In this document: positions 9,803 to 12,771 of the stretch, in pieces
Numbering within the stretch: position 1 is the stretch's first letter
Layout of the letters: every line of letters starts with the position of its first letter
Assembly (NCBI GenBank): GCA_021373185.1
Contig: JAJFTF010000055.1
Coordinates: forward strand, 62,001 to 126,000
Reading direction: 5' to 3'
DNA length: 64,000 bases
Source: Betaproteobacteria bacterium
GTDB lineage: Bacteria; Pseudomonadota; Gammaproteobacteria; Burkholderiales; Sulfuricellaceae
Notes under the pieces: model-generated
Seen by the model: only the letters and a program-made list of their open reading frames with translations
What the model was told of the DNA's origin: nothing
Databases searched by the model: none
Position numbers and translations under genes: made by a program

Positions 9803-9835
9803 GCCTCTTCTCCCAAGTTCGGCCATGCAGGCCAT

Positions 9836-9870
9836 AAAAAAACAAAAGCCACAGAGTTCGATCTGTGGCC
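9836..9870 (-). terminator. attenuator terminator in the leader of the DMT transporter gene
   Basis: On the minus strand the arms GCCACAGA (9869-9862) and TCTGTGGC (9855-9848) form a perfect 8-bp stem with a 6-base loop. TTTTGTTTTTTT follows at 9847-9836. The structure lies only 33 bases before the transporter start and 36 bases after the leader-peptide stop, so it terminates leader RNA and not an upstream gene. The same TGTGGCC string occurs inside the leader-peptide codons (9924-9918) and could pair with the 5' arm instead. Confidence 0.82.
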
Positions 9871-9906
9871 TTGGCGGAAACTGCTGAAATTTACAGTGCT
9901 TGAACG

Positions 9907-9996
9907 CTAATTTTCCGGGCCACACAACGTAACGCGCCACGCCATGCAGGCGCAGGGGCGAAATTGAAAACGGCGGACGGATAGAAATAAATTCAT
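9907..9996 (-). CDS. putative 29-residue leader peptide with Cys codons (leaderless)
   Basis: A short frame ATG...TAG that begins exactly six bases after the -10 box GATAAT, so the predicted transcript starts at the A of the ATG. The peptide carries R8-R9, then R13-P14-C15-A16-C17, W20-R21 and C25, an unusual density of Cys and Arg codons. Codons 24-27 contain TGTGGCC, which is complementary to the 5' arm of the following terminator. A ribosome stalled at C15 or C17 would leave this segment free (antiterminator), and one that reached the stop would cover it. I do not recognise the peptide as a named family; its coding status is inferred from this geometry. Confidence 0.6.
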   Translation of the reverse strand: MNLFLSVRRFQFRPCACMAWRVTLCGPEN

Positions 9997-10002
9997 GCGT
10001 CA

Positions 10003-10032
10003 ATTATCAAGCGGCGGGAGCAATCATGTCAA
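10003..10032 (-). promoter_or_regulatory. sigma70-type promoter for the leader peptide and DMT transporter
   Basis: On the minus strand TTGACA (10032-10027), an 18-base spacer and GATAAT (10008-10003) form a strong promoter. The start point predicted about seven bases downstream coincides with 9996, the first base of the leader-peptide ATG. The divergent ylqF gene begins 80 bases away. Confidence 0.72.
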
Positions 10033-10111: not shown

Positions 10112-11026
10112 ATGTCTATTAACTGGTTTCCCGGCCACATGGTCTCGGCACGCAAAAAAGCGGCTGAAACCATGGAGCGCATTGATATCGTCATCGAAGT
10201 ATTGGACGCCCGCCTGCCCGAGGCCAGCAGCAACCCGATGATTCAAGAGTTGCGCATGCACCGCCAGCGCCCCTGTCTGAAAATCCTCAACAAGTCCGAC
10301 CTGGCCGACCCGGTCGCCACCCAAGCCTGGCTCAACTTCTATAACCGCCAGAAAGGCGTCAAGGCCGTGGCGCTATCCTGCAAGAAACCGGGAGATGTCG
10401 CCAAGGTGCCCGGCTTGTGCCAGGAAATCGCCCCGCACCGCGGCACCAACCTGAAACCGTTGCGCATGATGATCATGGGCATCCCCAACGTCGGCAAATC
10501 AACCCTGATGAACGCCCTGCTGAAGCGTCGGGTGGCGGCAGTGGGCGACGAACCGGCGGTAACCAAGACGCAGCAGCGCTTCGACCTGAACGACCGGATG
10601 TCGATCACCGACACGCCCGGCTTGATGTGGCCGAAAATCGAGCATGATAGCGACGGCTACTTGCTGGCCGCGAGCCACGCGATAGGACGTAATGCCGTAA
10701 TCGACGAGGAAGTGGCCACCTTTCTCGCTGAAATCCTGTTGGCTCGCTACCCCAATTTGTTATCCGCCCGCTATAACTGCGCCACGGAAGGAATGGATGG
10801 CGCATCGGTCATCGAGGCGGTCGCCAAACGACGCGGCATTCTTCTCAAAGGCGGCGCGCCCGACTTGGAGAAAGCCGCCCTCACGCTACTTAAAGACTAC
10901 CGCACCGGTGCGCTGGGACGTATCACCCTGGAGACACCGGAAACTCGTAGCGTCATGCTAGAAATGCATGCCCCCGCCAAAAATAAAACAGAGGCCAATT
11001 CGCCGACCGCTTCGCACGCCGAATGA
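10112..11026 (+). CDS. ylqF: ribosome biogenesis GTPase YlqF/RbgA
   Basis: A circularly permuted GTPase of 304 aa that helps late assembly of the large ribosomal subunit. The permuted order is visible: the G4 motif NKSD near residue 61 comes before the G1 P-loop GIPNVGKST near 123-131, then G3 DTPGLMWPK near 167. The N-terminus MSINWFPGHM is typical of the family, and the C-terminal RNA-binding ANTAR-like region follows. The stop lies just before ycaO, whose ATG at 11059 is 32 bases downstream, so they may be co-transcribed. Confidence 0.92.
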   Translation: MSINWFPGHMVSARKKAAETMERIDIVIEVLDARLPEASSNPMIQELRMHRQRPCLKILNKSDLADPVATQAWLNFYNRQKGVKAVALSCKKPGDVAKVPGLCQEIAPHRGTNLKPLRMMIMGIPNVGKSTLMNALLKRRVAAVGDEPAVTKTQQRFDLNDRMSITDTPGLMWPKIEHDSDGYLLAASHAIGRNAVIDEEVATFLAEILLARYPNLLSARYNCATEGMDGASVIEAVAKRRGILLKGGAPDLEKAALTLLKDYRTGALGRITLETPETRSVMLEMHAPAKNKTEANSPTASHAE

Positions 11027-11058
11027 CATCTCCGGCAACCAGCCAGCAGGATATCCAC

Positions 11059-12771
11059 ATGAACAAAGAGAACTTCATTGCGGGCAAGGATGCTTCGCTG
11101 GAATCGACCATTGATGCCATGCACAGCAAGCTAAGCGCGCTGAATTTTCACATCGAGGAATGTTCCTGGCTAAACCCGGTAGAGGGCATCTGGTCAGTGC
11201 ACATTCGTGAACGCGACTGCCCTTTACTGTTCACCAACGGCAAGGGAGCGTCAAAGCAGGCGGCGTTAGCAAGCGCACTGGGCGAATTTTTTGAACGTCT
11301 CTCCTGCAATTATTTCTGGTCGCATTATTACTTGGGCGAAACGCATACCCGGCGCGGGTTCACCCATTACCCGCAGGAAAAGTGGTTTGATCCGGGCAGC
11401 GACGAATGGCCGGATGACCTGCTCACGCCGGAATTGCGTGAATTCTACAACCCGGACGGCAGTATTGACGCTGATATGCTGGTCGACCTCAACTCAGGCG
11501 ATGGCGAAGGCCGCATTTGTGCCCTGCCCTTCGCCCGGAGTCGCGATGGTGTGAACGTATGGTTCCCTGTGAACATCATCGGCAACCTGTATGTCAGCAA
11601 TGGCATGGCAGCGGGCAATACTCCTGCTGAAGCTCGTACCCAAGCATTGTCTGAAATTTTCGAACGTCATATCAAATTTCGCATCATCAGCGAAGGATTA
11701 TGCCTGCCGGATGTGCCGAGTGAGGTGATTGCGCGTTATCCGCGTATTGAGGCCGGTATCCTCGCATTGCGCAAGGCGGGCTTCGGCATCTTGGTTAAGG
11801 ATGCCTCGCTGGGTGGCCTATATCCGGTGATGAATGTAACCTTGCTCAATCCGCACGATCAGGGCTGTTTTTCCAGCTTTGGTGCTCATCCGCGTTTTGA
11901 AATCGCGCTTGAACGCGCACTCACGGAATTGCTGCAAGGTCGCGCACTGGATGCGCTGGGCGGCTTTCCCGAGCCGGGGTTTGACCTCGAGGAAATTGCC
12001 AGTTCGCCTAATCTGGAAATTCATTTTGTCGATTCCAGCGGCATCATCAGTTGGAACTTCCTTGGCGACACCCCTGATTTCGAATTCAGCGACTGGAACT
12101 TCAGCACCACTACCGCTGAAGACTATGCATGGCTGACCGAGTGCATCCACGCCGAAGGCCATGATATCTATATCGCCGACCATACCCATCTGGGTGTTTA
12201 TGCCTGCCGGGTAATCGTGCCCGGCATGTCCGAAATTTATCCGGTCGACGATCTGGAATGGGAAAACAACAGCATCGGCAACATCATCCGTCCCGCCATC
12301 CTGCACCTGTCCGATCTGGATGAGAATGAATGTGCCGATCTGCTGGAGTCTCTCAATGAACTGGGGCTGGATGACCAGCGACCAGTCGCAGCGATCATCG
12401 GCATGGCAGCCGACGCCGATTCCTTGTGGCGAGATTTGCGCGTCGGCGAGCTGAAAACCCTGCTGGCACTGGCAATCGGCAATGAAGAAGCGGTTCGCGA
12501 GGGATGCGACTGGATCCATCATTTCGAGCAATTGGATCAGCGCCGCAGAAATGTTTACCGCTGTATCGAGAACTTGCTTGACATGACCGACACCGTGCCT
12601 TATCGCAACGCCCTGTTGCACCTGTATGGCGCTGACACACTGCAACAGGCGCAAGCCCTGCTCGACAGAAAACAGCATTTCTTCGGCCTGCAATCGCCGG
12701 GAATGGCGCTTGCAGGCTGCGATATGCACCAGCGCTTGCTTGCTGCTTATAACAAGCTACATGCAACATAA
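11059..12771 (+). CDS. ycaO: YcaO protein (ribosomal S12 methylthiotransferase accessory factor)
   Basis: A 570-residue YcaO-fold protein closely like E. coli YcaO, from FIAGKDASLE and EECSWLNPVEGIWSVHIR onward. YcaO proteins use ATP to activate amide backbones; the E. coli member enhances RimO-dependent beta-methylthiolation of ribosomal protein S12. ATP-site motifs TNGKGA, ALASALGEFFERLS and ALSEIFERH are visible, followed by the C-terminal ~180-residue TPR-like region. AGGA at 11049-11052 supports the ATG at 11059. An ATG at 11023 would overlap ylqF by four bases but has no ribosome site. No azoline peptide or maturation genes lie nearby, so a role in natural-product synthesis is unlikely. 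rimO is not in the window. Confidence 0.9.
   Translation: MNKENFIAGKDASLESTIDAMHSKLSALNFHIEECSWLNPVEGIWSVHIRERDCPLLFTNGKGASKQAALASALGEFFERLSCNYFWSHYYLGETHTRRGFTHYPQEKWFDPGSDEWPDDLLTPELREFYNPDGSIDADMLVDLNSGDGEGRICALPFARSRDGVNVWFPVNIIGNLYVSNGMAAGNTPAEARTQALSEIFERHIKFRIISEGLCLPDVPSEVIARYPRIEAGILALRKAGFGILVKDASLGGLYPVMNVTLLNPHDQGCFSSFGAHPRFEIALERALTELLQGRALDALGGFPEPGFDLEEIASSPNLEIHFVDSSGIISWNFLGDTPDFEFSDWNFSTTTAEDYAWLTECIHAEGHDIYIADHTHLGVYACRVIVPGMSEIYPVDDLEWENNSIGNIIRPAILHLSDLDENECADLLESLNELGLDDQRPVAAIIGMAADADSLWRDLRVGELKTLLALAIGNEEAVREGCDWIHHFEQLDQRRRNVYRCIENLLDMTDTVPYRNALLHLYGADTLQQAQALLDRKQHFFGLQSPGMALAGCDMHQRLLAAYNKLHAT

Follow-up and report, generated by a model that had tools for sequence, protein, structure and literature searches.

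A putative leaderless attenuator with a single tryptophan codon upstream of a DMT transporter gene

Described attenuators and the leader locus

The classical trp, his and phe attenuators of Enterobacteria contain several regulatory codons, control biosynthesis genes and share an order of segments, namely a hairpin in the ORF, an antiterminator strand and a terminator. These classical leaders possess a Shine-Dalgarno site. The leader analyzed here is alike in logic and segment order, but it has a single candidate regulatory codon, precedes a transporter gene and is probably leaderless. A leaderless trpL attenuator, rnTrpL/peTrpL, is known from Sinorhizobium meliloti (PMC7298713). As in rnTrpL, the transcript would start at the leader ATG (here predicted from a spacing of 5-8 nt), the ribosome would read Trp codons, and antiterminator and terminator are mutually exclusive. 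Whereas rnTrpL controls trpE(G) in Alphaproteobacteria and encodes a peptide of 14 aa with several Trp codons in succession, the leader described here has one Trp codon in about 30, encodes a basic peptide and precedes a DMT transporter gene. The mycobacterial polycysteine uORFs (Canestrari et al., 2020, cited in PMC13236596) are also leaderless short ORFs that act as amino-acid-responsive attenuators. They carry a poly-Cys tract and belong to cysteine genes, and PMC13236596 calls their control translational. In the leader described here, by contrast, Cys lacks conservation and an intrinsic terminator provides the output.

The Rfam models, amino-acid leaders included, gave no match in the window (the whole 64,000-nt stretch of DNA that was analyzed) at the gathering threshold. 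With E values up to 0.1 at ten loci, the only hit was a sub-threshold sX6 match near one relative. We did not find a description of this leader in the open-access papers searched, although an earlier prediction may exist.

The features of the locus are listed in Table 1. A first-pass annotation had read a promoter, an ATG at 9996, a 29-codon frame with Cys at codons 15, 17 and 25, a perfect terminator and a transporter gene on this strand, and direct reading confirmed all of these. It had also placed a TGTGGCC segment, equal to the 3′ arm of the terminator and able to pair with its 5′ arm, in codons 24-27. The identity and the pairing hold, but the segment occupies codons 25-27 (9924-9918) and the antiterminator is longer than proposed, as CGGAAA (9917-9912) is predicted by folding to pair with TTTCCG (9880-9875) as well. 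The gene on the other side of the leader is ylqF (10112, plus strand). It is divergently transcribed, which means that the terminator is not that of a preceding minus-strand operon. The pattern TTGACN-N17/18-NATAAT-N5/8-ATG has one match in the 2.77 Mb genome and none in the reversed control. Beside ylqF lies a YcaO gene of the ribosomal protein S12 methylthiotransferase type (window 11023-12771; NF040716, above cut-off).

Table 1. Coordinates of the leader and transporter features in the window.
Feature	Position	Strand	Basis or remark
-35 element TTGACA	10032-10027	minus	Read directly; 18-nt spacer to the -10 element
-10 element GATAAT	10008-10003	minus	Followed by TGACGC (6 nt), then the ATG
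Leader ORF, 29 codons and stop, MNLFLSVRRFQFRPCACMAWRVTLCGPEN, predicted leaderless	9996-9907	minus	ATG at 9996-9994; frame-specific composition in relatives
Hairpin inside the leader ORF, 3′ arm with the Trp codon	9933-9960 (approximate limits)	minus	Folding; pairing probability against shuffled sequences
W20 (TGG), conserved, proposed regulatory codon	9937-9939	minus	Comparison of leaders
Antiterminator 5′ strand TGTGGCCCGGAAA	9912-9924	minus	Comparison and folding
Antiterminator 3′ strand TTTCCGCCAAGGCCACA, overlapping the terminator 5′ arm	9864-9880	minus	Folding
Intrinsic terminator AGGCCACAGA-TCGAAC-TCTGTGGCTT (9871-9846), then T run TTGTTTTTTT	9836-9871	minus	Sequence; covariation in relatives
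Purine-rich ribosome-binding site of the transporter gene, GGGAGAAGAGG	9804-9814	minus	Sequence
EamA/DMT transporter gene, 294 aa, predicted regulated gene	9802-8918	minus	Pfam EamA, E 4.9e-34

Distribution of the leader and selection on its reading frame

At the order level we used the 80 best relatives from a scan of the named genomes carrying the transporter, and the leader layout was found in 60 of these 80 orthologues (the window itself included; the rest are from L032-L111). This layout consists of TTGAC[AGT], a spacer of 17-18 nt, a -10 element, 5-8 nt, an ATG and an ORF of 29-46 codons; the ORF of one relative (L077) is degenerate, with 21 codons. A GTGG[CT]C strand lies close to the ORF end, and ahead of the gene is AGGCCACAGA-n-TCTGTGGCCT with a T run. 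Carriers include Gallionella, Sideroxydans, Nitrotoga, Ferriphaselus and Sulfuricella (including Sulfuricella sp. T08), to which a later scan added Thiobacillus and Rhodocyclales.

The order and the whole GTDB class were searched with a more distant orthologue and the upstream DNA was then read. Most class-level orthologues (40-72% identity) have the leader layout, and TTGAC[AGT] with a 17-18 nt spacer occurs in most leaders of orthologues. Across order and class the total is 135 leaders, 134 of them with a recognizable terminator. Shuffled upstream regions gave the leader layout in 3.3% of cases, and in 0.9% with a Trp. The spacing from the -10 element to the ATG is 5-8 nt in 60/60 class-level leaders, although 1-30 nt was allowed; because only candidates with a good promoter 4-9 nt ahead of the ATG pass the leader scan, the layout may in truth vary more widely. 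To judge by this spacing, the first transcribed base is probably the A of the leader ATG or a neighboring base, and it is here that the leaderless ORF of the first-pass annotation finds its support. A covariance model (R1) run over 399 genomes returned many low-scoring matches that are bare GGCCACAG-type terminators, which were disregarded.

The gene neighbors outside the operon vary among relatives, and the leader thus goes with the transporter gene. The class-wide comparison strongly supports the earlier proposal of a leaderless-type short ORF with mutually exclusive antiterminator and terminator before a transporter. In the closest relative (L034 in G008, upstream of position 2501), whose transporter is 90% identical, the leader ORF is wholly deleted. 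This deletion spans the region from the -10 element to the terminator, and promoter and terminator alone remain.

On comparative grounds, the short ORF upstream of the transporter gene is translated and its reading frame is selected. In the first 21 codons after the ATG, frame 0 has no stops and the other two frames have 36 and 11 at the order level and 62 and 20 at the class level; the stop-free frame 0 is partly built into the search, which required an ORF of at least 18 codons, but the amino-acid bias is not. From composition, about 66 Asp and Glu codons would be expected in either set, and the counts are 3/1554 codons (order) and 17/1260 codons (class). The leader peptides are likewise poor in Gly and Tyr and rich in Arg, His and Lys. 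When codons of related leaders differ by one nucleotide, the change is synonymous in 198/507 cases (39%), compared with 24% expected. Across the 134 relatives, the scarcity of Asp, Glu, Gly and Tyr is seen in the translated frame only. We know of no mechanism that would explain it.

The codon that is read and the alternative pairings

The near-invariant residue of the leader peptides is a single Trp, W20 in the window. Trp is found at codons 10-28 in 123/134 leaders, usually as one Trp codon per leader, and its context is basic (e.g., LRMVWHR, LRAWRD, RVWRV). The median distance from the Trp codon to the antiterminator strand is 14 nt (IQR 12-15). A ribosome footprint reaches about 12-13 nt downstream from the first base of the A-site codon, and a ribosome waiting for Trp would thus reach as far as, but not into, the antiterminator strand. 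In 82/99 leaders a ribosome in this position leaves the strand clear (overlap of at most 2 nt). TGG triplets 8-20 nt before the antiterminator strand fall in frames 0, 1 and 2 in 94, 26 and 3 cases (n = 123), whereas the strand itself starts in these frames in 49, 34 and 36 cases. That TGG is kept in the frame of the ATG and the strand occurs in all three frames argues for selection for decoding of the Trp codon. In L037, L040 and L103 the usual frame is lost after the Trp, not before it. Six order-level leaders (L033, L047, L054, L064, L065 and L070) have lost the Trp codon, which is replaced by Cys, Gly, Val or Leu with the other layout kept. These are possible natural loss-of-response variants.

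The terminator and the antiterminator are conserved as pairings. In 42 aligned leaders, 98.3% of the cells of the terminator are paired, with two-sided changes in four pairs, and the terminator arms vary by lineage (GGCCACAGA, GGCCGCGGA, GCCGCACTTT, GGCCACTACC and others). Hardly any variation is seen at the order level in the antiterminator core, GTGG[CT]C:GGCCAC. The antiterminator strand pairs better with the terminator arm of its own leader (mean -15.4 kcal/mol) than with the arms of other leaders (-12.9 kcal/mol; Wilcoxon p = 7e-8). Applied to the whole leader, RNAalifold returned the terminator and part of the antiterminator only, because the alternative structures share strands.

Folding of the window sequence with a modeled ribosome footprint gave the two alternative states that had been proposed. 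With W20 in the A site and the RNA ending before the 3′ terminator arm, the pairing TGTGGCCCGGAAA:TTTCCG..GGCCACA is predicted to form; a ribosome placed at the stop abolishes this pairing in favor of the terminator. When no ribosome is modeled, the antiterminator is a predicted intermediate and the final minimum consists of the terminator and a 5′ helix, which leaves the untranslated state uncertain.

The first-pass annotation had assigned the sensing to Cys codons (C15 and C17) or to Arg codons, such that a stall there would free the antiterminator strand. We consider this unlikely. Stalls at C15 or C17 do free the same strand in the window, and as they give the same free state as a stall at W20, folding cannot separate the three; conservation does. 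Cys is missing from codons 2-26 in 20/58 order-level leaders, and only 6 have at least two. In the upstream regions of homologues the paired arms were found as expected, but most relatives lack an equivalent of C15 and C17, the site of C17 being usually Arg or another residue just before the Trp. A conserved Cys tract, the mark of cysteine-responsive leaderless uORFs, is absent. C25 is encoded by the antiterminator strand (TGTGG), and this strand is not tied to the reading frame. Arg is more common, with at least one in 58/58 order-level leaders and at least two in 54, but its positions vary, base composition favors CGN and the other frames are Arg-rich too. Cys and Arg codons were rejected as the sensor since they are not conserved or not at a fixed place, and they lack the constant spacing and the frame preference seen for Trp.

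Equally improbable to us is a general sensor of translation speed or antibiotics, in which any slowing in the second third of the ORF would give read-through and the transporter would export a toxic compound. It would suit a peptide that is poorly conserved except for the Trp, and DMT proteins include exporters (the YedA and YddG models match below cut-off), but such a sensor has no need for a conserved in-frame Trp codon whose spacing to the antiterminator strand is constant.

The Trp codon also lies in a hairpin within the ORF. Its GG is paired upstream with a probability of 0.85, compared with 0.55 in codon-shuffled controls (p = 3e-13), and RNA structure may therefore add to the conservation of TGG, part of which may be due to the hairpin. 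It is less likely still that TGG is kept solely as the 3′ arm of a pause or protector hairpin, with the ORF translated and no particular codon sensed. Bases around TGG that are paired at similar levels (0.5-0.6) are variable, with 0.1-0.6 bits, whereas TGG hardly varies and mostly shares the frame of the ATG, and its T is nearly fixed with a pairing probability of only 0.48. The information and pairing profiles are aligned on the Trp codon, the unconditioned frequency of which is the 123/134 given above.

The transcript (9996-9836) could also be mainly a stable trans-acting sRNA or the source of a trans-acting basic peptide, with attenuation secondary, for which the strong promoter and terminator, the leaderless ORF, the basic peptides almost without acidic residues and the Sinorhizobium precedent (PMC7298713) speak, but this is very improbable since the peptide keeps hardly more than the Trp and its charge, and the element is found directly before eamA or a chorismate mutase-eamA operon. 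We also rejected a TnaC-like mechanism, in which a ribosome holding Trp in its exit tunnel would arrest at the stop: neither the frame nor the stop downstream of the Trp is constant, and a ribosome in that position would favor the terminator.

We consider it probable that the leader acts by ribosome-mediated transcription attenuation, with a single Trp codon in a leaderless leader ORF and read-through upon Trp shortage. RNA polymerase would initiate on the A of the ATG or beside it, and a ribosome would translate the ORF of about 30 codons. When Trp-tRNA is scarce, the ribosome would pause while its A site holds the Trp codon, melting the hairpin of the ORF, and its front edge would stop just before the antiterminator strand. 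The free strand would then base-pair to the terminator 5′ arm and the EamA transporter gene would be transcribed. When Trp-tRNA is ample, the ribosome would cover the antiterminator strand and the terminator would form. Against this reading stand the six leaders that have lost the Trp codon, the antiterminator predicted as the intermediate in the window when no ribosome is modeled, and the finding that a ribosome at the stop covers at least 4 nt of the antiterminator strand in only 44/99 leaders. The layout, the selected frame, the Trp codon, the alternative pairings and the distance from Trp to antiterminator are established at the level of sequence comparison, and the leader looks like one that responds to Trp.

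In classical attenuators the regulatory codon occurs at least twice, and theory predicts low sensitivity for a single codon (PMC1183508). The leaders described here usually have one Trp codon, and we therefore call this leader a variant of the attenuator.

The transporter and its possible substrate

The best NCBIfam matches of the transporter are below cut-off, and a PDB sequence search with it gave no match. The weak match to the YddG model is a hint only as to the substrate. A small chorismate-mutase/isochorismate-lyase-like gene lies between the leader and eamA in Thiobacillus (L104, L105) and in the families f20 (L158, L192) and f32 (L160), in each case below the NCBIfam cut-offs, and elsewhere the leader stands directly before eamA. 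Apart from this gene in some lineages, we saw no conserved gene neighbors at the class level. Its presence in the operon suggests an aromatic compound, and tryptophan or another aromatic compound may be the substrate. The main physiological objection is that a chorismate mutase induced by Trp shortage would be metabolically odd.

The leader family would, by its position, control eamA or the chorismate-mutase-like gene with eamA, and not a trp biosynthesis gene. The region upstream of the window genome's own trpE is without the leader layout. Between gph and trpE (L315) there is a long inverted repeat (ACCACAGAGACACAGAGGCACAGAGA) that holds a short ORF (MNHRDTEAQRTANPILWRWRV) with two Trp codons; it looks like a mobile repeat.

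The fullest reading of these data is an undescribed, class-wide family of leaderless attenuators with one Trp codon at footprint distance, which would mark the DMT transporter (with a chorismate-mutase-like enzyme in some lineages) as a new transporter of tryptophan or other aromatics, and whose peptide would additionally be selected against acidic residues. We regard this reading as evenly balanced between true and false. If it is true, tryptophan supply would be the physiological signal for a group of DMT transporters common in the Gammaproteobacteria, for which a substrate hypothesis would be gained, and a leaderless attenuator with a single regulatory codon would have persisted through the divergence of a bacterial class.
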